DNA from: a virus
DNA: 24,430 bases
IMG/VR virus record: IMGVR_UViG_3300025151_000293
Span: 1-24,430 of that record
Reading direction: 5' to 3' (one strand)
A model generated the notes under the pieces. The model made no database searches, was not told the DNA's origin, and saw only the letters and a list, made by a program, of their open reading frames with translations. Shown here one piece after another: positions 661 to 24,298 of the stretch. Made by a program: the position numbers and the translations under genes. Each line of letters starts with the position of its first letter. Positions within the stretch are counted from its first letter, which is position 1.

Positions 661-1109
661 TAGAATACATCAGTTACCTGTGAATTGATTACAAAAGAAC
701 CTCTCAACACTCCTTTGTGAGTATCGAGCCCAGTAGAGCTTGGTTTAACGTACTTAAGATCATACACATATGATCCAGGTGCAATCAAGCTCATGGTTTC
801 TGCAGATGCCTCAATAGTTACGTTACCACTGTTATCTAAGGTTGGCGCTTCAAATGCTCTAACATCTGTATCTCGACCCTTTGTAATGCTTGGTGTTTGA
901 AGAACGACATTTTCTATTTGTCTGCCAGCTCTTTTATCTCCAACGCGAGTGATTGACTTGACCTGCATGTAAAAAACATACTCGTCAGTCACAAGAGTGA
1001 GGCCTGTGCCACTAGAATCCTTGAGATTCACTGTCATAGAAAAGGTGTCACCTTCTCTACAAACGATGTTCAGCTCCTCTGTTGTATCAAAATTTGCTGT
1101 TTCAGCCAT
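660..1109 (-). CDS. Small beta-rich putative virion or tail protein, 149 aa
   Basis: 149 aa, rich in alternating hydrophobic and polar residues with no strong helices (REGDTFSMTVNLKDSSG, YVYDLKYVKPSSTG). This suits an immunoglobulin-like beta-sandwich, as in many baseplate or fibre-attachment proteins, but no family can be named from sequence alone. It sits between the portal and the tail fibre. Its ATG overlaps the portal stop (TGATG) and its own stop overlaps the fibre start (TAATG), so it belongs to the structural operon. Role in tail or fibre attachment is inferred from position and composition only. Confidence 0.7.
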   Translation of the reverse strand: MAETANFDTTEELNIVCREGDTFSMTVNLKDSSGTGLTLVTDEYVFYMQVKSITRVGDKRAGRQIENVVLQTPSITKGRDTDVRAFEAPTLDNSGNVTIEASAETMSLIAPGSYVYDLKYVKPSSTGLDTHKGVLRGSFVINSQVTDVF

Positions 1110-3544
1110 CAGTCCTCAAATATTTTATCTACCAATCCTTTTGTCTCCTTTACAACTTCTTCCCTCTTGCCCTGCCTTTGAGATATAAGCTTGCTTTGAT
1201 CCGCCGTTTGAGCTTCCAAGCGCTCATCCTTTCTATCCTCTTTGAGAACTTCAAGCTTCTCTCTAAATGCCTGATCTTCTTCTCTAAATCCAAGAGTGGC
1301 TTTGGCTTTGATCATTTCAATCTCTCGCCTAAACTCATGTCTCATTGTCTCAAGCTGAGATTCCATCTCATTCTTCAGCTTCATCTTTTCCATATCAAGC
1401 TGAGCTTCCACTTGAGCTTCTTGAATCTTGAGCTGAGACGCTGCTTGAGCTGCCTGAAGAGCTTCTTGTTTTTGACGCTGAGAGTTTTGATCTGCCATGG
1501 CAGCCACGCGCTGCATTCTCTTCTTTCTTTTGACAATAAGAAGTCTTTCAGCTTGATTTACATCTTTCAGTCCTCGAACAGCAATCGCATCTTCCAGATC
1601 AAGTTCTTTTTGCTGAAGGGCCATCTGAATGTTCTGCTCTAGATAAGCCTTGTCTTTGTCCTCCATGTCTTTTGTGACAAGAACTCCAAAGTTGTACATA
1701 GGCAGTTCTGAGAATGATGACAAGGCATCCATGTTCTCATTGCCAAGGGCTCTTTTGTAGGCCCCATAAATCACAGACTCTTCTGGCAAGATCTGAATGC
1801 ACTTGATAATATCCTGACAAACTTTTTTGAAGAGAATCAAAGAAGCATTTGTGATGTCGTATGTGGCATTGTTGCTTGCCTGAATAGCTTGTTGCTGAAC
1901 ACCCACCAAAGCATCACCCTTAGGAGTAGAGGCGTCCACAGCCTCATTTACTCCAGTTGTATCGCGGATCATTCTTAGATAGTGATTGTACAAACCAATC
2001 AACTCATTGATGTTCCTAATGCTATTGCCAATCTCTCGAACAGGTGGGTTCTGGAATCCACCTTCTGGGTTCTTGCTCCTGTAGTAGAACACACCAGTCT
2101 GTTCGTAAATGTCGTGAAGGTCAAGAGGCTGAAGCTCTCCCCCCTTGCCAAGCTGTACATTCTCCAGCCCTTCAATATCAATCACCAATCCATCTGGCTT
2201 TGCCTTTGCAATCGCCTGTTGAATCTTGAGGTGAGTAAGTTGAAGCATGTCAGCAAACCCTGTGCAGCTGTCCACCATGGACTTAGGCATCATGTCTTTC
2301 AGATTGACTGCAGAAGCTGAGTAGGACAAGGTTGCTTGTGAGAGGTCGTGAATGTTCTTAGGGATATTTTTCTTTTTGCCATACCCAAACAACATTCCGC
2401 AATCAACAATGTAGCTCCCTTCGTAAACAACCTTAATGTCCATGCATTGTGGTCGTCTTTCATAGACAGAACCTTTGGGCTGCTTATAGCTAAATCCTTT
2501 GTAGAAGAAATTAAAATTGCCGTAGCGATTCTCTTTCTCTTCAAAGTGCATTGTCTCAACGGTCAGGAACTCAAAATCCAAAACATTTACAGTGTACTCG
2601 TCGTACCCATATGTCATGGTGTTAAGGTCCTGGTCGTATTTTTTTGTGCTGTACTTACTGGCATTGTTGCCGTTTGTACCCTTGACCTTGTTTGCAATTT
2701 TGCTAAGGTCCTCTTCAGAAAGCTCGTCCCCTGCAAGCCTACGCAATTCAGCAATAGAAATCTTCTTGATGTGACCCGCGTAAGTTAGATCATTAAAACC
2801 TGGGTCTTCTGTGTAGCTATGAATAAACAGAGACGGATCGACATACTCTGTTTTAATCCCAGTGTTTGGGTCATTTGACCTTTTAACAACTGCGATTCCT
2901 AAAGCCACCAGATCATTTACAGATCTTCTGAAGATAGAATCTTCAAATTGATTCCACTCCAAAGTAAGATTTGTTGCAATCTGAGCAGATATCTCTCCTC
3001 CTGTCTTGATGTTATCTCCATACAGGATATCAATTTCTTCAGCTGAATCAGGAAGGGATGCAGGGTCTTCGCCAAGTGATTGTCCTGTCTTCTCTTTGAA
3101 TTGCATCAACAACTCCTTGTTGGCAACTTGAGACTTCAGAAATCTTTTATTCTTGTTCTTTTGAGATGTAGACAGAGGGTCAACAGCCTCCAGGTTAGGG
3201 TACATCTTCTTTGCAAGAATCTTGTTTGCTACAATGCGAACAAACTTAGGCAGAACAGGTACTGGAGTATAATCAAGATTCATCAAGCTTCCATCACCCC
3301 CATTTGGATCGAGGCTGTTAAGGAGCTGCTTGTAAATGTTTGTGTCCTGAGTGCCAAGAGCATAGTCTCTGCTTCTGGCAAATATTCTATTTCTTTTCCC
3401 TACAAGACTCCCAACATCCGTCATCCTTCCCCACTGTGAATCAATAGCTTTTGCATATTGAATACCGTAAGCTTTTGATGCTTTTTCTTCTGGGGAGGCA
3501 AGAGGATTTGGGAACCCTTTACTCGTACCTTTTGTGTCCTGCAT
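1109..3544 (-). CDS. Portal protein (head-tail connector), 811 aa
   Basis: Immediately downstream of the large terminase, as portals usually are, and of portal size. The body has portal-like stretches: an Arg/Asn-rich N-terminal third, then a helical wing with YNHYLRMIRDTTGVNEAVDA followed by KGDALVGVQQQAI. The last 150 or so residues are a highly charged Gln/Glu/Lys coiled coil (QKQEALQAAQAASQLKIQEA), ending LVDKIFED. By family it forms the dodecameric channel at one capsid vertex through which DNA is packaged. I start it at ATG 3544 (MQDTKGTSKG). The longer TTG start at 3574 falls inside a promoter -7 box, so it is unlikely to be translated. The 3' end contains one copy of an exact 24-bp repeat also found at 19410. 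Confidence 0.85.
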   Translation of the reverse strand: MQDTKGTSKGFPNPLASPEEKASKAYGIQYAKAIDSQWGRMTDVGSLVGKRNRIFARSRDYALGTQDTNIYKQLLNSLDPNGGDGSLMNLDYTPVPVLPKFVRIVANKILAKKMYPNLEAVDPLSTSQKNKNKRFLKSQVANKELLMQFKEKTGQSLGEDPASLPDSAEEIDILYGDNIKTGGEISAQIATNLTLEWNQFEDSIFRRSVNDLVALGIAVVKRSNDPNTGIKTEYVDPSLFIHSYTEDPGFNDLTYAGHIKKISIAELRRLAGDELSEEDLSKIANKVKGTNGNNASKYSTKKYDQDLNTMTYGYDEYTVNVLDFEFLTVETMHFEEKENRYGNFNFFYKGFSYKQPKGSVYERRPQCMDIKVVYEGSYIVDCGMLFGYGKKKNIPKNIHDLSQATLSYSASAVNLKDMMPKSMVDSCTGFADMLQLTHLKIQQAIAKAKPDGLVIDIEGLENVQLGKGGELQPLDLHDIYEQTGVFYYRSKNPEGGFQNPPVREIGNSIRNINELIGLYNHYLRMIRDTTGVNEAVDASTPKGDALVGVQQQAIQASNNATYDITNASLILFKKVCQDIIKCIQILPEESVIYGAYKRALGNENMDALSSFSELPMYNFGVLVTKDMEDKDKAYLEQNIQMALQQKELDLEDAIAVRGLKDVNQAERLLIVKRKKRMQRVAAMADQNSQRQKQEALQAAQAASQLKIQEAQVEAQLDMEKMKLKNEMESQLETMRHEFRREIEMIKAKATLGFREEDQAFREKLEVLKEDRKDERLEAQTADQSKLISQRQGKREEVVKETKGLVDKIFED
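1117..1140. repeat. Copy 1 of an exact 24-bp repeat (portal 3' end)
   Basis: Identical over 24 bp to 19410-19433 and in the same orientation. It begins CAAATATTTTATC and ends CCAATCCTT. Here it encodes the portal tail LVDKIF on the minus strand. The minus-strand reading also ends ATATTTG, a near match to a promoter -7 box, 7 nt before the next start codon at 1109. Confidence 0.9.
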
Positions 3545-3571
3545 TAGATAGGGATTCCATTTTACCTTTTG

Positions 3572-3579
3572 CAAATATA
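3572..3579 (-). promoter_or_regulatory. Bacteroidetes-type -7 box (TATATTTG) before the portal gene
   Basis: The minus strand reads TATATTTGCA, matching TAnnTTTG exactly. It leaves a leader of about 20 nt to ATG 3544. No good TTG element is found 19-20 nt upstream, so the promoter is incomplete. The same 10-mer occurs before two other minus-strand genes (13461-13470, 15401-15410). Confidence 0.5.
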
Positions 3580-3584
3580 AGTAA

Positions 3585-5699
3585 TCAACGAGTTACGTTA
3601 TATCTGCGGAAAAATCTCTTCTCTTCGAAGTTAGATTTGGGTTTTGTTTTTTCTTTTTGGGCAGCCAACAAGCACAAACCAGAGCTTATACTAAGGTCGT
3701 ACTTGGTTCGATTGTCGATCTTAAATCCAATCCAATCTTCCAGGGTTCTATTGAAATACATTTTTCCATATTCACCACTATCGTGATTTATTCCTACATG
3801 ATCATGTATGTATGCCTCTATAGCCTGGGCATGGGCGTGAATAACATCCTGTGAGTTGGAGGGGATTCCTTTTGTCTTTACTCTTTGGGCGCCAGCACTG
3901 TTTGATAAATGCCTAGGCCTATCCAATAAGTATCCATCGTAACCCCTTGATTCAAAATATCTTGCGATGCCGTACTTATTGTTTTCAATTAACAGCGGGT
4001 ATCCGTAGAACACAGACGCCATGAGGCAGTCTTCATAGAAGATCTTGGCCAGGGGTGGGCGCGAAGCGTATTCTAAAACAAACATGTTTGATGGGTGATG
4101 CATGTTGAACTTGTTGAACATGTGCATTGCCCCCTTAGATCCTCTGCCGTCTACTGTTGCATCAAGGTCATAGGAGTCAACACCGCCAACACCTATGTTC
4201 GCGTTTGGTGCAACTCGTTTGTTTCTGTCAAACTTTTTTTGATTTCGCATCTCTGGAGGCGGCATCCATCCAATATGAAATCTACCATTGGGGTCAGGCT
4301 TGAATGCGACTTCTGTGTCTTGCTCTCCATTCTTCCAATAGAAGTTTCCTACCACCACTGGATTTGGAAACAGGTCATCATTGTATTGCACCTGCTCATA
4401 AATCTTGGTGATGTTAAACAGAGTGCTTTGAACGCTGTCTCTAAATGCTTCGTCTGTAGTAAATGGAAACTGTCTGATAACCTCATTCAGTTCTGAGGGA
4501 TCTTCCAAAAGCCCTTGCCTTTCGTTTTTTAGGTAAGACTTTGAACCAGTATAGATTTCTTCCCCATCAATCCCTTCAACAGAAGAATCAGGGTCGTTAA
4601 CTACAGGCTCCCCATACAAATCAAAAAATCCCTCTAGTGATTCAAAAGCTGGGATGAACAGCCTGTACAGTCCAGATCTAGTCCTCCCATTCTTGTTTCT
4701 CTCCGCTGGGTTTGAATCGTTCCACAAATCTTTGTACTCCTTCCCCCCTTTGTCCATTGGATTTACGGTGCTTCCTACCATGGCCTTTCCTACGATTTTC
4801 CGCCCTACGATCAAACAAGTTCTTTGAATCCTCCAGGCGTCCCTTATGTCCGTAGGCTTTTCCCATTTACCAGCCTCATCAAGATACAACAGGTGCAGCT
4901 TCTCACCATCATATGCATTGTTGGTGGTGTTTTTCCAATTGACTACTGTATTCAACGCCTCACCACTCTGTGATGTCTTGTTGTTTTTCGTAATTCTTTT
5001 TGATGGCTCTCGAAAGGCAAGTTCCATTCGAGGGTTTGTAGTACCGTCTTGAATGGGTTTAAAGAAGAAGGGGTAGCTCCTGAACATGTACACCACCTTC
5101 TTCATGAAGATGTTTTCTTGTGCGTCTTTACCTGTTTTTGATTGGATGCCAAGAAGCTTGTCTTTGATCTGAGTAGCTTCATCAACCAAAACTGAAGAAC
5201 AGATATTGGTATATCCAGAACGACGGCACTTAGTGTACAGCTGACCAATACAACGCGGATCAGACTCGCACGCAGCAAGGTGTAAAAATATATCACGTTG
5301 GAATGCAAGGTAAGATGGATAGCCTATGTCCATCTTGGTCCATTGCAGCATCATGTAGTGCCTGCCCGTAATATACGTAGCGACACCGTTGTTATAAAAC
5401 CAAAAGCCTTCACGCCTACGGCGAAACTCCTCCTCGATATATGGACGAAACTTCTCTCTAAATTCCCTTGGCATTTCTGCCCACTCATCCATAGACTTAA
5501 TCCTAGACAGCTCCTGAGGCATATCAATCCTTTCCCACAATTGCAAGCGCTTTGACTTTTCATGTCCTGCAATTTGTTTTTTGGGAGGCTGAGCGGGAAG
5601 AATAATGAGTAGCCCACCAAGTTCAATACTTTGACCTTGCGTGCCGTTGGGACAAATTGAGATAGCGTAGTCCTCATATTTATCGTCCTTGACCAGCAT
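3585..5699 (-). CDS. terL: Terminase large subunit (TerL), 704 aa
   Basis: Two-domain packaging motor. The ATPase domain has a deviant Walker A (CRRSGYTN, about residues 158-165, Arg-rich instead of GxGKT, as in many TerL proteins), a Walker B (LHLLYLDEA, 268-276, Asp274-Glu275) and a coupling-type motif GSTVNP near 309. The C-terminal RNase H-like nuclease starts at IGVGGVDSYD (Asp508), with LIENN (Glu572) and KYDLSISSG (Asp668) as the other likely metal ligands. It cuts concatemeric DNA and drives it through the portal encoded just downstream. Length is somewhat above the usual 450-650 aa. The first 20 nt overlap the small basic peptide gene in another frame. Confidence 0.93.
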   Translation of the reverse strand: MLVKDDKYEDYAISICPNGTQGQSIELGGLLIILPAQPPKKQIAGHEKSKRLQLWERIDMPQELSRIKSMDEWAEMPREFREKFRPYIEEEFRRRREGFWFYNNGVATYITGRHYMMLQWTKMDIGYPSYLAFQRDIFLHLAACESDPRCIGQLYTKCRRSGYTNICSSVLVDEATQIKDKLLGIQSKTGKDAQENIFMKKVVYMFRSYPFFFKPIQDGTTNPRMELAFREPSKRITKNNKTSQSGEALNTVVNWKNTTNNAYDGEKLHLLYLDEAGKWEKPTDIRDAWRIQRTCLIVGRKIVGKAMVGSTVNPMDKGGKEYKDLWNDSNPAERNKNGRTRSGLYRLFIPAFESLEGFFDLYGEPVVNDPDSSVEGIDGEEIYTGSKSYLKNERQGLLEDPSELNEVIRQFPFTTDEAFRDSVQSTLFNITKIYEQVQYNDDLFPNPVVVGNFYWKNGEQDTEVAFKPDPNGRFHIGWMPPPEMRNQKKFDRNKRVAPNANIGVGGVDSYDLDATVDGRGSKGAMHMFNKFNMHHPSNMFVLEYASRPPLAKIFYEDCLMASVFYGYPLLIENNKYGIARYFESRGYDGYLLDRPRHLSNSAGAQRVKTKGIPSNSQDVIHAHAQAIEAYIHDHVGINHDSGEYGKMYFNRTLEDWIGFKIDNRTKYDLSISSGLCLLAAQKEKTKPKSNFEEKRFFRRYNVTR

Positions 5700-5984: not shown

Positions 5985-6341
5985 TTATAAGCTTCTTCTT
6001 TCGTGTGTCTTAATCCTGTGACAGTTTGCACATCTAATCTCACACTTTCTCATCTCTTCTTTTATCGTTGATATAGACTTGGGGCGATGAACCATATCTG
6101 CTATGTTTTCAACCTTCTCGCCTTTGACATGATCGAAATCAAGAACAAGAGTGTTTGACTCCCCGCAATCTATACAACTAAAAATCTTTTTGACTCTATT
6201 TACAAACTCTCTATTCCATTTTCTTTGTTGCGCTTTGGTCTGTTTTGCTTTCGACTTATAATACTCTTTGTTCTTCGCGTAGTGTTTTTTCTGATAGGCT
6301 TTATTGTAAGCCCTTCTAACATCGCGGTCCTTGTAAGGCAT
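5985..6341 (-). CDS. HNH endonuclease, 118 aa
   Basis: The N-terminal 50 residues are Lys/Arg/Tyr-rich and helical. The HNH beta-beta-alpha-metal fold follows, with the zinc knuckle Cys56-xx-Cys59 (CIDCG), the LDFDH core (Asp70-His71) and CEIRCANCHRIKTHERR (Cys104-xx-Cys107-His108). Proteins of this size with two CxxC pairs are either free-standing homing endonucleases or packaging-associated HNH proteins next to terL. Its position three genes before terL fits the packaging role, while its insertion flush against a damaged tRNA fits homing. Its ATG overlaps the stop of the 47-aa gene (TGATG). Confidence 0.88.
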   Translation of the reverse strand: MPYKDRDVRRAYNKAYQKKHYAKNKEYYKSKAKQTKAQQRKWNREFVNRVKKIFSCIDCGESNTLVLDFDHVKGEKVENIADMVHRPKSISTIKEEMRKCEIRCANCHRIKTHERRSL

Positions 6342-6484
6342 CAGTCCTCAAACTCATCATTCCAAGATTCCTCCCAGAATTTGAAATCAGTTTTGTTCTT
6401 TTGCCAGACTATTGCCTGCCAGTCATTTAGAGTATCTTTCAGCGAAACCTCCGCTGTAGTCTTTTGCTTGCTCGATTGATCCAT
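6341..6484 (-). CDS. Small Trp-rich acidic protein, 47 aa
   Basis: The frame from ATG 6484 reads MDQSSKQKTTAEVSLKDTLN, then a Trp/Phe-rich C-terminal half (KFWEESWNDEFED). It overlaps the end of the preceding gene by 62 nt in another frame, and its stop overlaps the HNH start (TGATG). The last codons, TTTGAGGACTGATG, are identical to the portal 3' junction. No family recognised. The reading frame is supported by the junction and the composition, but it is short. Confidence 0.55.
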   Translation of the reverse strand: MDQSSKQKTTAEVSLKDTLNDWQAIVWQKNKTDFKFWEESWNDEFED

Positions 6485-6668
6485 TGTTCGTAAGGTCTTT
6501 GATCATTTGTTCTAAACGCTGTCTTTCTACAATTAACTCCTTGCAGTCTGTTGCCGTCTGTTTAATTGACTGAAGCTCCGCTTTGCGAGCGCTCCCATTG
6601 ATGTCTGGATCAACAGGCTTTTTGACTTCATCAATCATGTTGTTGATGGCTGTCTCCATGCTTCTCAT
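6423..6668 (-). CDS. Helical protein of TerS size, candidate small terminase subunit, 81 aa
   Basis: Predicted mostly alpha-helical with heptad-like spacing (SIKQTATDCKELIVERQRL, EQMIKDLTNNG) and a C-terminal GGFAERYSK. T7-like phages carry a TerS of about 85-100 aa just before TerL. This protein has that size, helical character and neighbourhood (packaging genes downstream), so TerS is a reasonable but unproven guess. Start chosen at ATG 6668, 16 nt after the previous stop. The frame is open further upstream to 6761, but that part overlaps the previous gene, and a non-ATG start a few codons earlier is possible. Confidence 0.6.
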   Translation of the reverse strand: MRSMETAINNMIDEVKKPVDPDINGSARKAELQSIKQTATDCKELIVERQRLEQMIKDLTNNGSIEQAKDYSGGFAERYSK

Positions 6669-6684
6669 CAAGCGCTGGGCAGCA

Positions 6685-6954
6685 TCAATCGTTGTAAACT
6701 TCTTGCGTGACAAAATTGATGTATTGAGGGGTTTTCTCTCCAACGTATGCACCAACAACATTGTAATCTAAATGCTCTACTGCATCTTCATATTCTATGC
6801 CCTCTTCAATCAGAATCTCAATCATCTTGTTGATGTCATACACAGCAACCACATTGGGGCCATAGGTGCAACCCACAAGGGCAGCATCAAATCCATCAGC
6901 AGTAAGACACTCTTCTTCTGCGAGCACCTCCATCAAGTGTTCTTTATCAATCAT
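6685..6954 (-). CDS. Acidic phage protein of unknown function, 89 aa
   Basis: Begins MIDKEHLMEVLAEEECLTAD and contains ALVGCTYGPNVVAVYDINKM, then GIEYEDAVEHLDYNVVGAYV followed by GEKTP. The pattern of a YEDAVE(Y/H)L-type helix followed by N(V/I)xGAxVGExTP is familiar from small proteins of many phages whose function is unknown. ATG 6954 overlaps the stop of the GroES-like gene by 4 nt (ATGA). No catalytic signature visible; strongly acidic. Confidence 0.75.
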   Translation of the reverse strand: MIDKEHLMEVLAEEECLTADGFDAALVGCTYGPNVVAVYDINKMIEILIEEGIEYEDAVEHLDYNVVGAYVGEKTPQYINFVTQEVYND

Positions 6955-7535
6955 TGCTCTACGTATAAAAGGTCTTCGATGCGAGTTCTATAGTATTCTT
7001 TCCCGTCAATCTTAATGCGATAGTCTCTGTTTTGTTTGAATCCAACAACATCGCCTTTCTTCACACCTATTGATTTCAATTCCTTTGAATCAAAAGCAAC
7101 GACGCCCTTAGTTGGGAGCTCTTCTTTTAAAGACACCACCTCGATAGTCCCATCTTCTTTTTCCTCCTCTTCAATAGCAGACAACAGGCTCCAGCCATCA
7201 AGCGGGTGTATCTTCCCTTTCTTGTCTTTGTATGCGATTGCCTGATTGTTTACAGCATGCTCTGGATCGTATTTGACAAAGTAACTATTCTCCACACCTG
7301 TAAGCTTTTGCCCACCCTGCATCACAACAAGATGATGGAAGTACAATCTATCCCCCTTTTTAACTGGGGTTTTATACTTGGCTGGGGTAGCTATGACTGG
7401 CCCGTCAGTAACTCTGTATTTGAACTCACCGCCCTCGAATCGAGTGTCGATGTATAACTCAACTCCGCTTTTGGTTGAGATCGTATCGTTGATTGGTCTA
7501 TCCAGCTCAACGATAAACATATTTAAAGATTTCAT
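6951..7535 (-). CDS. GroES-like co-chaperonin, apparently two GroES-type halves, 194 aa
   Basis: The N-terminal half resembles the 10-kDa co-chaperonin: MFIVELDRP, a mobile-loop-like TKSGVELYID (21-30) and VKKGDRLYFHH (58-68). About 100 residues later the GroES-like pattern recurs: GVVAFD, then VKKGDVVGFKQN (158-169) and a C-terminal TRIEDLLYVEQ, which matches the closing strand of GroES. Phage co-chaperonins such as T4 gp31 and RB49 CocO replace host GroES so that host GroEL can fold the major capsid protein. The same job is inferred here and fits its place in the virion module. It overlaps both neighbours by 4 nt (ATGA). An ordinary GroES has about 95 aa, so this is double length. Confidence 0.65.
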   Translation of the reverse strand: MKSLNMFIVELDRPINDTISTKSGVELYIDTRFEGGEFKYRVTDGPVIATPAKYKTPVKKGDRLYFHHLVVMQGGQKLTGVENSYFVKYDPEHAVNNQAIAYKDKKGKIHPLDGWSLLSAIEEEEKEDGTIEVVSLKEELPTKGVVAFDSKELKSIGVKKGDVVGFKQNRDYRIKIDGKEYYRTRIEDLLYVEQ

Positions 7536-7687
7536 TGATTTTTGTAGGGGAACATTTCATTTAATTTATCTCGTCTCTGACTGCACCCGCAGTCCTTTGA
7601 GACCTTTTCGACCAGGCGCTTTAGTCCTGTTCTTTGAGTGAATTTTTCTACAGTATCACCAACACCTCTAGATTTCTTAGTATCCAT
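7532..7687 (-). CDS. Small CxC-containing phage protein, 51 aa
   Basis: Reads MDTKKSRGVGDTVEKFTQRT, then GLKRLVEKVSKDCGCSQRRD and KLNEMFP near the end. The combination G(L/V)GD(T)xxKxTxxTGxxxxV..DCGCxxRRxxLN is a recognisable small protein in many phages, function unknown. The CGC pair might bind metal. The start at 7687 overlaps the end of the four-Cys protein gene by 11 nt, and the stop overlaps the GroES-like start by 4 nt. The frame is open further upstream, but only as a shadow of the neighbouring gene. Confidence 0.75.
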   Translation of the reverse strand: MDTKKSRGVGDTVEKFTQRTGLKRLVEKVSKDCGCSQRRDKLNEMFPYKNQ

Positions 7688-8009
7688 ATGACCGTCTTGA
7701 AGTTCTGCGTGCTGGAGCCTGACGGGGCTGAACAGGCGCTGACGGTGCAGGTGTAACAGTTGGGGCTGGAACAGGTGGTGGAGATACATCAACCTCAGGG
7801 GCCATAGATGGAGCAACAGACATGGCTTGTTTAGGTTGCCAAGAATTACACACATATCCCGCCTTTACCCTTGCCTCCCATCTTGTGCAGTAATTACCTA
7901 CCCAATACACACAGTTTCCGCAGTATTGACTCTTGTTATTTGCGCGTTTATACGCTGCAGGCAAAGAAGCTGGAATAATACTGCCGTCTGGGTAAGTTCT
8001 TGTGGCCAT
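7677..8009 (-). CDS. Four-cysteine (HiPIP-like or zinc) protein with Pro-rich tail, 110 aa
   Basis: Residues 28-57 hold Cys30-xx-Cys33, Cys41 and Cys54 with aromatics around them (YCGNCVYWVGNYCTRWEARV, then YVCNSW). The C-xx-C-x7-C-x12-C layout with a following Trp resembles high-potential iron-sulphur proteins and a common phage protein of unknown role, so an Fe-S cluster or zinc is likely. Residues 65-110 are a Pro/Ala-rich low-complexity tail ending in basic residues (RRTSRRSYGY). First residues MATRTYPDGSIIP. Function in the phage unknown. Confidence 0.7.
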   Translation of the reverse strand: MATRTYPDGSIIPASLPAAYKRANNKSQYCGNCVYWVGNYCTRWEARVKAGYVCNSWQPKQAMSVAPSMAPEVDVSPPPVPAPTVTPAPSAPVQPRQAPARRTSRRSYGY

Positions 8010-8010
8010 C

Positions 8011-8250
8011 TTAAAAGTTTAGATCGTATTCAATGATGCATGGCATGTCGTCTACAGACTTCCACAAAACATTGCTCCCATCTTCCTCCTCAAGATATAC
8101 AAGATACCTGTTCTTACCATGCCTGTATAGAAAAGCTTCATCATTGACAATGGCGCTAACCTTACTGCTGCCAGCTCGCATGCCAACATAGTAGGCCATG
8201 GCGTCCTTGGGATCACGACCTATGATGATTTTTCTGATTACACCTTCCAT
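8011..8250 (-). CDS. Hypothetical protein, 79 aa
   Basis: MEGVIRKIIIGRDPKDAMAY with a mixed beta pattern (AFLYRHGKNRYLVYLEEEDG) and C-terminal PCIIEYDLNF. No family recognised. It sits tightly between neighbours on the same strand (1 nt on each side), so it is a member of the leftward operon. The single Cys and lack of catalytic motifs give no hint of activity. Confidence 0.7.
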   Translation of the reverse strand: MEGVIRKIIIGRDPKDAMAYYVGMRAGSSKVSAIVNDEAFLYRHGKNRYLVYLEEEDGSNVLWKSVDDMPCIIEYDLNF

Positions 8251-18335: not shown

Positions 18336-18488
18336 GTGAAGAGAATCCACCCTATCCTTGGGCTTGAGCGACATGCATATGCCCCAGAACTCAACAAGTT
18401 GCACTTCACTGACGGCACAACGGAGAATGTGCCACAATGTACCACCATCAAGGATGCTTTGGCATACTTGAACAATCAACAGACATGA
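18336..18488 (+). CDS. Small hypothetical protein with GTG start, 50 aa
   Basis: The frame begins GTG 18336 (VKRIHPILGLERHAYAPELN) and ends DALAYLNNQQT. The GTG is supported by the short spacing after the previous stop (5 nt) and by the stop overlapping the next ATG as ATGA (18485-18488), the typical junction in this module. No family recognised. Confidence 0.6.
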   Translation: MKRIHPILGLERHAYAPELNKLHFTDGTTENVPQCTTIKDALAYLNNQQT

Positions 18489-19087
18489 ACCCACAAACAT
18501 TTGAAAAGACGCTGTCCAAGATGCGTCGCAACGTATCACACTGGCATGACATGGCATCACATGACATGAAGCAAGACGGCCTTGTGTGGTACGACGAAGC
18601 CCAAGAGTTCGCTTTGGGTATGGCAAATGAGTTTGGCATCTCCCCTGTTATGGCAGGGGGTGTCATCTCAGCCCTCTCCCCAAGGAACAAGTGGGAGAGA
18701 AACAAGATTGACGCATGGAACGTATGTCAAGCCATCCGTGACGACGTATCACACGATCGTGTGAAGTGTTGCACCTTTGACATGAACAAGGTGAAGGCAT
18801 TTGAAATTGCCAAGGGCATCAGGTCAATCCAAGATACGAGCCGCAAGACCCATCGCTTCGCTCTGAATGTGGGGGCAAAGGACATGGATGCTGTTACTAT
18901 TGATTCGTGGATGTTATTGGCATTCCAAAGTGTATCACACAAGCGCAAGCCCCTTGAAACGTCAGTGACCCCCAAACAATATGACATCATGGAGCGCAGG
19001 TTCCAACGTATGTCGCATGACATGGGGTATACACCTGCACATTTGCAGTCCATCGTATGGCTTATGATTCGTGAGTTATGGACTTGA
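18485..19087 (+). CDS. Possible helix-hairpin-helix DNA-glycosylase-fold protein, 200 aa
   Basis: An all-helical protein with GISPVMAGGVISALSPRNKW (51-70), then ERNKIDAWNVCQAI, and later KTHRFALNVGAKDMDAVTID followed by SW (121-142). The layout (V-I-A/S-A-L-S-P near a helical repeat, K..F..N, then VTIDSW) recalls phage proteins related to the HhH-GPD glycosylase superfamily, where an Asp in the T-(I/V)-D stretch is catalytic. That assignment is from memory of the pattern and not certain; base excision or a base-modification step would be its likely field. ATG 18485 is chosen for the 4-nt overlap with the previous stop. It contains a perfect 16-bp palindrome at 18749. Confidence 0.6.
   Translation: MNPQTFEKTLSKMRRNVSHWHDMASHDMKQDGLVWYDEAQEFALGMANEFGISPVMAGGVISALSPRNKWERNKIDAWNVCQAIRDDVSHDRVKCCTFDMNKVKAFEIAKGIRSIQDTSRKTHRFALNVGAKDMDAVTIDSWMLLAFQSVSHKRKPLETSVTPKQYDIMERRFQRMSHDMGYTPAHLQSIVWLMIRELWT
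18749..18764. repeat. Perfect 16-bp palindrome TCACACGATCGTGTGA
   Basis: Located inside the HhH-like gene. Its ACGATCGTGTGA half is also present at the centre of the 17619-17654 hairpin, so it may be a shared protein-binding site. Confidence 0.65.
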
Positions 19088-23490: not shown

Positions 23491-23874
23491 ATGACGCAAA
23501 AACAAATACACAAGATTGTAGACAAACAAGAACAGGATGGAAAGCACTCTACCATCATCGCGGGGAAGCTTGTACGTCTTGATGTTTTCAAGATGGGGAC
23601 TCACGAATGGCTCAGTCAAAGCGGTTCAGATGTGGCGGATGGCTTCGTAGATGTGGCTGCCATCACCATTGGTGTGGTGGTGGACGAACTCAAGTCCCGC
23701 CTAGCAGGAGAAGAACTGCTTGACGACCTGGGCTTGCCGCAATCAGACCGCATCAGCTTCGATGAAATCGAAAAATTTCATACGTCTGTCCTTGACACGT
23801 TCGAGGTGTTGGCTACATATTTGCGAATCCTAGAGATTGCAAAAGCCCAACACAATGAGAGGAATAATGAGTGA
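23491..23874 (+). CDS. Hypothetical protein, 127 aa
   Basis: MTQKQIHKIVDKQEQDGKHS, IIAGKLVRLDVFKMGTHEWL, then a helical second half (DELKSRLAGEELLDDLGLPQ, FEVLATYLRILEIAKAQ). No family recognised. First gene after the palindrome gap; overlaps the DnaA-like gene by 8 nt, so the two are probably one unit. Confidence 0.7.
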   Translation: MTQKQIHKIVDKQEQDGKHSTIIAGKLVRLDVFKMGTHEWLSQSGSDVADGFVDVAAITIGVVVDELKSRLAGEELLDDLGLPQSDRISFDEIEKFHTSVLDTFEVLATYLRILEIAKAQHNERNNE

Positions 23875-24298
23875 GTTAGCCGTTCAAGTAAGGGCGGAAT
23901 ATGAAAGACAGATTGGGGAAAAGATTGACAACGTCAGAAGACACAGGCCCATGGTGGAGCATCGCGCTGCTGTGTCAAATGCCCTTCGTCCCTACCTGTC
24001 ATACGCCTCGATTGGTGCCCTGTTTGAGAAAGACCACAGCTCTGTGGTTCACTACAACAAAGAGCACGAACCCATGATCAGGTTCTCACCAGCCTACCGC
24101 AACAAGTATGCAACAGCAGTCGAAGTGGTGAACAATGTGACCAGAGGGATGGACATCGCACCCATTTTTCATGAGTCATACAACGTGGACATCAGCCCAC
24201 GCAGAGCCCTTGAAGACATAGACAGAGTCATCATAGGTTTGATGGACATGAAGTGCAGGATTCTGGCCAAACAGAACAAGGGACTTGCACAGGAATAA
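23867..24298 (+). CDS. DnaA domain IV-like DNA-binding protein, 143 aa
   Basis: Residues 20-70 match the C-terminal DNA-binding domain of the initiator DnaA: RRHRPMVEHRAAVSNALRPY, then the helix-turn-helix LSYASIGALFEKDHSSVVHY, in which F-x-x-(R/K)-DH-(S/T)-(S/T)-V-x-H (Asp56-His57 and Val60/His62) is the DnaA-box signature. There is no AAA+ domain, so it cannot act as an ATPase initiator. It could mark an origin, capture host DnaA boxes or regulate transcription. The rest (70-143) is helical and unknown. Start at ATG 23867 is preferred; in-frame ATGs exist 12 and 30 nt upstream. Confidence 0.8.
   Translation: MSELAVQVRAEYERQIGEKIDNVRRHRPMVEHRAAVSNALRPYLSYASIGALFEKDHSSVVHYNKEHEPMIRFSPAYRNKYATAVEVVNNVTRGMDIAPIFHESYNVDISPRRALEDIDRVIIGLMDMKCRILAKQNKGLAQE

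Follow-up and report, generated by a model that had tools for sequence, protein, structure and literature searches.

The window analysed here corresponds to an entire virus record (24,430 bases), which may be a genome fragment, and encodes on its minus strand (6951..7535) a protein of 194 residues with two GroES-like halves. This protein is best explained as a tandem (double-domain) GroES-type co-chaperonin, which would act as the lid of the GroEL chamber, or as a part of that lid, in the folding of late phage proteins; we put the probability of this reading at roughly 0.7. The protein is identified by its open reading frame, its match to the phrog_13932 family, the Cpn10 match (PF00166) of its C-terminal half and the match of its full-length model to the PDB chain 7ekq_R, and for the phage tandem we infer that it binds GroEL, as well as its clients, its late timing and the stoichiometry of the ring. 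The novelty lies in the presence of an architecture like that of the plastid co-chaperonin Cpn20 in a phage family already labelled GroES.

Gene context and linkage to the terminase

The reading frame of the tandem gene extends from an ATG over 194 residues without an internal stop. At either end it overlaps a neighbour, its ATG sharing bases with the stop of the preceding small reading frame and its stop with the ATG of the ORF that follows (6954), which gives the gene the appearance of belonging to a tightly packed operon. On its 3' side, and on the same strand, are found two small ORFs, an HNH endonuclease gene, the gene encoding the terminase large subunit (TerL; 3585..5699; phrog_6681, E 2.9e-198) and the portal gene (1109..3574; phrog_6547, E 1.2e-186). 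The sequence-only reading had placed the gene in a structural operon, which its location upstream of the genes for TerL and portal bears out. One of the small ORFs (6423..6761, minus strand, 112 aa) encodes a possible small terminase: it gave no convincing family match in PHROG and Pfam searches, but its C-terminal GFAERYSK is reminiscent of the GFAERRSK that ends an ORF located between the double gene and TerL in the Podoviridae isolate ctfjg026, and it may thus be a small terminase shared by both. The HNH endonuclease gene (5985-6341, minus strand; phrog_2255, E 3.3e-25), between the small genes and TerL, looks like an insertion into the packaging cluster. A small gene upstream of the tandem gene (8011..8250, minus strand, 79 aa) has look-alikes, when translations are compared by eye, just 5' of the tandem gene in phi38:1 (gp088) and in ctfjg026, and its product is possibly a conserved, putative small partner.

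Among the relatives, 142 of 147 contexts have a TerL start within 2.5 kb downstream of the double gene and the remaining five have one at 2.6-4.0 kb, the distance varying from about 0 to 4 kb; this count is drawn from 178 distinct contexts, of which the 31 with less than 2.5 kb of downstream sequence were set aside, it takes plus-strand matches only, with TerL starts extrapolated from tblastn, and its contexts, in which repeat-fetched contigs were reduced by identical context, are not fully independent. In the records of two relatives, MS/MS notes of the depositors mark the portal protein (phi18:3) or a tail protein and a structural protein in the portal position (phi40:1); the double bears no such note in either record, the absence of a note being weak evidence against a virion role. 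The location of the tandem gene beside terminase and portal genes suggests that its clients are late proteins.

A known family whose label hides two domains

The window protein matches phrog_13932 with an E value of 6.1e-46, from residue 1 to 192 and from position 2 to 199 of a 200-position profile. The family is already known: phrog_13932 is labelled "co-chaperonin GroES", the RefSeq doubles that were opened bear the same name, and the excerpt available from PMC8776804 names a "chaperonin cpn10" among Pervagoviridae core proteins. Its two-domain nature is unstated in the phage records opened, and the existing label therefore hides a two-domain protein. The view that phage co-chaperonins are single-unit, from which the sequence-only reading started, is not general, since this family profile has 200 positions and double-length members occur in named phage records. 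Among the matches listed from the open-licence literature, as titles and starts of abstracts, no phage tandem GroES is described.

By tblastn, the double is found in 16 of 50,697 phage records, which are those of 15 Cellulophaga phages, belonging to Pervagoviridae and Pachyviridae where opened, and of ctfjg026. The relatives found in IMG/VR number 193 with the window protein as the query, at least 533 with the alignment and 540 with the ctfjg026 protein, in sets that may overlap, and the family is frequent among contigs that are related to phages of Bacteroidota. Flavobacterium records with a related TerL number 68, and the ones listed belong to elemo phages; in the one record opened, that of elemoA, a 180-aa member lies directly before TerL. 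This member was missed both by tblastn of the phage records and by PF00166, indicating that divergent doubles can be overlooked. A pattern scan of cellular genome contigs, based on the alignment and of limited sensitivity, gave 66 pattern matches and no relative, and a nucleotide-level search of the window against phage records gave no match. The named members of phrog_13932, i.e. phi18:3 gp096, phi38:1 gp089, Calle_1 gp013 and elemoA gp33, occupy the same place before TerL and portal, and the window protein is 25-29% identical to the proteins of phi18:3, phi38:1, Calle_1 and ctfjg026.

Relation of the two halves

A repeat with a spacing of 100 residues had been noticed, and this is confirmed: VKKGDRLYFHH (from residue 58) and VKKGDVVGFKQN (from residue 158) are spaced by exactly 100, the VKKGD copies themselves being encoded at 7350..7364 (residues 58-62) and 7050..7064 (residues 158-162), both on the minus strand. 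G61, D62, G161 and D162 are invariant in an alignment of 43 members, composed of the window protein and 42 of 49 distinct relatives; these 49 proteins come from 79 of the 80 relatives kept out of 193, the one left out (L009) having its start missing. When the N and C halves are compared by hhalign, they score 24.6 over 20 columns with a probability of 28-35%, for a maximum of 21.7 in 200 column shuffles. The likeness of the two halves is weak, yet more than chance. A recent internal duplication was considered and rejected, as the halves are closer to single Cpn10s (36.5 for the N half and 56.1 for the C half) than to each other (24.6), which points to an old duplication or to the fusion of two diverged Cpn10s.

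Both halves are predicted to be GroES-type, with unequal clarity

As far as the sequence goes, the C half (residues 108-194; 6954..7214, minus strand) is clearly a Cpn10/GroES domain. A GroES-like C-terminal part had been noticed from its last strand, and it is established here by a significant PF00166 match (E 6.8e-8, residues 108-190, 32.9 bits for a curated cut-off of 21.1). Such a match is obtained for the C half in 18 of 19 members (E up to 1). Against a profile of single Cpn10s, built from E. coli GroES and 10 of 18 phage single Cpn10s, its hhalign score of 56.1 corresponds to a probability of 97% (null maximum 18.2). Its predicted model reaches a Z of 8.4 in VIA, with the Thermus thermophilus Cpn10 4v4o_P (84 residues aligned, rmsd 2.8).

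The N half (residues 1-103; 7227..7535, minus strand) is matched by PF00166 in none of the 19 members, and a search of PDB sequences with the N-half profile retrieved no co-chaperonin, the best match being trigger factor with an E value of 0.014, which was treated as chance. Its assignment as a GroES-like domain comes from hhalign, from VIA and, in relatives, from the single-domain phage GroES family phrog_3188. The hhalign score of 36.5 against the single-Cpn10 profile corresponds to a probability of 89% and exceeds the maximum of 17.9 in 200 shuffles, with TISTKSGVEL aligned to the GroES mobile loop and VKKGDRLYF to VKVGDIVIF. phrog_3188 matches 7 of 42 N halves of the family, with a best E of 0.0037, and the other 35, to which the window N half belongs, are without a match. 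In the elemoA homologue, phrog_3188 gives an E of 0.029 for the N half alone and of 0.0003 for the whole protein, with a best stretch at 14-64, no stretch passing alone; the C half alone matches neither phrog_3188 nor PF00166. For the window protein and for those of phi38:1, phi18:3 and one contig (L195), it is the C half that phrog_3188 matches best, and the ctfjg026 double, which matches phrog_13932, gives no phrog_3188 match.

When modelled alone from a 42-row alignment (pLDDT 72.6), the N half gives nothing at E <= 0.001 in Foldseek, where Cpn10s take the first three places with E values of 0.018-0.071. In VIA, its first 11 entries are co-chaperonins, with Z values of 4.6-5.8, and medium-chain dehydrogenase domains, which share the GroES-like fold, come next, from Z 4.3; as Z gaps under 1 count as ties, the co-chaperonin entries at 4.6 cannot be separated from these dehydrogenases. 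The modest VIA and Foldseek scores agree with the hhalign alignment to Cpn10s, and we consider with moderate confidence that the N half is of the GroES type.

The AlphaFold2 model of the full-length protein, made from the 43-row alignment, has a mean pLDDT of 79 and a pTM of 0.77. Its only PDB match at E <= 0.001 is 7ekq_R (E 2.6e-4, TM 0.54), and in VIA the two are superimposed with a Z of 10.1 and an rmsd of 4.1 over 169 residues, model residues 1-194 lying on chain residues 12-194. The other VIA entries listed align nearly all to the C half, and the 95-residue chain 7ekq_P also matches the model. The title of 7EKQ is CrClpP-S2c. According to an excerpt from PMC8889267, the Chlamydomonas Clp core has been solved by cryo-EM with one end occupied by a heterotetramer (CPN11, CPN20 and CPN23). 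The title, the chain length of 194 residues and the structural match lead us to infer that 7EKQ is this complex and that chain R is one tandem subunit. In BFVD, four matches of 183-304 residues were obtained at E <= 0.001, headed by the phi18:3 double (E 3.3e-12). The expectation that structure prediction would reveal GroES in each half is thus upheld for the type of fold, predicted for both halves, and for the full-length match to 7ekq_R, and less firmly for the N half, whose scores are modest.

T4 gp31 is a single-domain, heptameric protein. The window protein resembles it in being a phage-coded protein of GroES fold and differs from it by its 194 residues with two GroES-like halves; VIA relates gp31 structures to the C half with Z values of 7.0 (2cgt_O) and 6.1 (1g31_A) and to the N half with a Z of 4.6 (1g31_A). 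According to an excerpt from PMC6318259, gp31 replaces GroES in the folding of phage proteins. Likeness to bacterial GroES/Cpn10 (PF00166) is found above the curated cut-off in the C half and, by profile, in the loop and core pattern of the N half, whereas the window protein departs from it by its two units per chain, by an N half that is below Pfam detection and by a C loop mostly devoid of the Gly.

The predicted mobile loops

A mobile loop is predicted in each domain. That of the N domain, located by hhalign to the GroES loop, covers residues 17-31 (DTISTKSGVELYIDT; 7443..7487, minus strand); D17, G24 and L27 are kept in 43 of 43 members and the mean entropy is 0.65 bits. That of the C domain, placed by pLDDT and conservation, covers residues 121-139 (7119..7175, minus strand); its [I/V]E[V/L/I] core is kept, the Gly is mostly replaced by D or E and the mean entropy is 1.35 bits. 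The model has pLDDT values of 59-69 in blocks over residues 11-40 and under 50 at residues 124-136, low values to which shallow alignments may contribute. The phi38:1 N loop is without the Gly. The conservation of an N loop with the GroES pattern suggests that the N half may bind a partner.

Single Cpn10 and GroEL partners across lineages

In the four lineages other than that of the window, double-carrying records with a length of at least 50 kb also encode a separate single Cpn10 in 15 cases out of 15 and GroEL in 10 out of 15. The single Cpn10 and GroEL are present in 4/4 and 0/4 Pachyviridae, 3/3 and 2/3 Pervagoviridae-like records (phi38:1, Calle_1 and contig G025) and 7/7 and 7/7 ctfjg026-like records, all of this length, and in the single elemoA record (1/1 and 1/1). 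Shorter relatives outside the window lineage either have a single Cpn10 (G039, G040 and G042, the first two also with GroEL) or have neither gene (G031 and G041). As a control, a Cpn10 is present in 2 of 12 Cellulophaga phages (10 tailed and 2 Microviridae) for which tblastn gave no double; both are 145-kb Lightbulbvirus. The association of the double with a single Cpn10 is suggestive, the lineages being few and the records not independent. In the Pachyviridae member Tenacibaculum phage Gundel_1 (L314), the TerL-portal block is present and neither a double, nor a single Cpn10, nor GroEL was found; a joint loss of all three is possible.

The window lineage differs from these relatives: a single Cpn10 is encoded by phi18:3, phi38:1, Calle_1 and ctfjg026, with GroEL in three of these, and in window-like records of at least 50 kb, which may be incomplete, PF00166 and PF00118 detected neither a single Cpn10 (0/9) nor GroEL (0/9). 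In window-like contigs of any length, these profiles found only the double, in 26 out of 26. A divergent single Cpn10 was considered as well, and a profile of phage singles added nothing in the 9 long contigs. In one of these contigs (G033), both halves of the double match this phage-singles profile separately. A single Cpn10 of the host is presumably available to the window lineage. In phi38:1, methylation sites are reported on the phage GroEL in infected cells (excerpt from PMC13288928), which implies that the phage chaperonin is made.

Proposed role and alternatives

In an excerpt from PMC3542282, GroES proteins of the tandem type are presented as a feature of plastids and apicoplasts. Like the phage tandem, the Cpn20 proteins of plastids and apicoplasts (Chlamydomonas CPN20 and CPN23, and those of Arabidopsis and P. 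falciparum) have two head-to-tail GroES domains in about 200 aa, and in related phages a single Cpn10 is likewise co-encoded; the tandem is here phage-coded, and the Cpn20-type likeness of its N half rests on profile comparison and prediction. Two PDB sequence searches listed no Cpn20 chain, an absence that does not prove convergence. The sequence-only reading held that a fused pair would bar a heptamer-compatible ring unless one half were structural, and the plastid precedent refutes this. The fit of an even number of Cpn20 domains to a seven-fold Cpn60 is a discussed puzzle (excerpt from PMC5780408). In excerpts from PMC5780408, PMC4242682 and PMC3542282, plastid Cpn20, with its two head-to-tail Cpn10 domains, works with seven-fold chaperonins; Cpn20 and Cpn10 form functional seven-domain hetero-oligomers, suggested in Arabidopsis to contain three Cpn20 and one Cpn10; Cpn20 can alternatively function as a tetramer from which one domain is excluded; and GroES domains linked into concatemers of six to eight are functional with GroEL. 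A single Cpn10 partner is not universal, as the P. falciparum apicoplast has only the Cpn20 type (excerpt from PMC5780408).

By analogy, the tandem protein, with its Cpn20-like architecture, would probably be made with the late genes and would close the GroEL chamber, alone or as a part of the lid, so that head and packaging proteins of the phage could fold, in the manner of T4 gp31. Each chain would occupy two of the seven seats of the ring, which would most likely comprise three tandem chains and one single Cpn10, or alternatively four tandem chains with one domain left out. The seventh seat could be filled in the related lineages by the phage-coded single Cpn10. In the window lineage, where neither a phage single Cpn10 nor a phage GroEL was found, a 3+1 ring would need host GroES, and host GroES and host GroEL would serve. 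A bolder version, which we hold only tentatively and think doubtful, is that Flavobacteriia phages independently evolved a plastid-style kit with an obligate, asymmetric 3+1 lid of seven domains for late proteins, the window lineage, without a single Cpn10 and GroEL of its own, taking host GroES as the seventh unit; if true, this kit would be composed of Cpn60, a single Cpn10 and a tandem Cpn20-like lid. The cultured phages phi38:1, phi18:3 and elemo, which combine the double with a single Cpn10 and sometimes GroEL, offer a small, genetically tractable system, in which obligatory 3+1 rings and client specificity from an asymmetric lid could be tested.

The unevenness of the two halves could mean that only one of them is a working co-chaperonin, the other, a degenerate GroES domain, conferring specificity for clients or a partner in a ring with active and inactive seats. 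This would be a sub-version of the tandem co-chaperonin rather than its exclusive rival, and we consider it unlikely, if worth keeping in mind: the loop entropies (N 0.65 vs C 1.35 bits), the C-loop Gly mostly lost, the invisibility of the N half to Pfam and the phi38:1 N loop without Gly are in its favour, whereas both halves retain the GD motif in the core and a hydrophobic-Glu-hydrophobic motif in the loop, and both give GroES-type matches in prediction. The degenerate C loop would also suit a head or packaging assembly factor, for instance a terminase or portal adaptor, in which a duplicated GroES fold is used as an oligomerisation scaffold and no longer works with GroEL. The near-obligate linkage to TerL (142/147 contexts within 2.5 kb) and the retention of the double by phages owning both GroEL and a single Cpn10 point in the same direction. 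This alternative is nonetheless improbable in our view, as the N loop is well conserved with its GroES Gly and hydrophobic pattern, as the full-length model matches a presumed tandem co-chaperonin and as MS/MS notes exist on other structural genes and none on the double, the latter absence being weak.

The remaining alternatives concern the nature of the N half and the partner of the ring. That the N half is only a generic GroES-like beta-barrel, as found in medium-chain dehydrogenases, so that the protein would be a Cpn10 with an unrelated N-terminal domain, could be argued from the dehydrogenases close behind in VIA (Z 4.3 vs 4.6-5.8, partly a tie) and in Foldseek, and from the lack of any Pfam match to an N half; since hhalign aligns the mobile loop itself and phrog_3188 matches 7 of 42 N halves, we judge it highly improbable. 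There is even less of a case for a seven-domain tandem ring that caps a ClpP-like protease instead of, or besides, GroEL, like the Chlamydomonas CPN11/20/23 complex. The best structural match does come from a Chlamydomonas ClpP complex, and the excerpt from PMC8889267 describes a complex of this kind, with CPN11, CPN20 and CPN23 at one end, but 7ekq_R probably ranks at the top because it is a solved tandem co-chaperonin, and no phage gene was seen that points to Clp.

Other genes of the window

Three further reading frames may be mentioned. A protein encoded on the plus strand at 18437-19087 belongs to DUF7178 / phrog_3842 (E 8.6e-34 and 2.4e-37), without known function, and another at 23837-24298, also on the plus strand, gives a weak match to the DnaA C-terminal helix-turn-helix (PF08299, E 0.00046), under the curated cut-off. 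On the minus strand, a 110-aa ORF at 7677-8009, with no PHROG match (E up to 1) and no Pfam match (E up to 0.01), displays a four-Cys/Trp pattern, CGNCVYW...YCTRWEA...GYVCNSW, which we take to recall high-potential iron-sulfur proteins.
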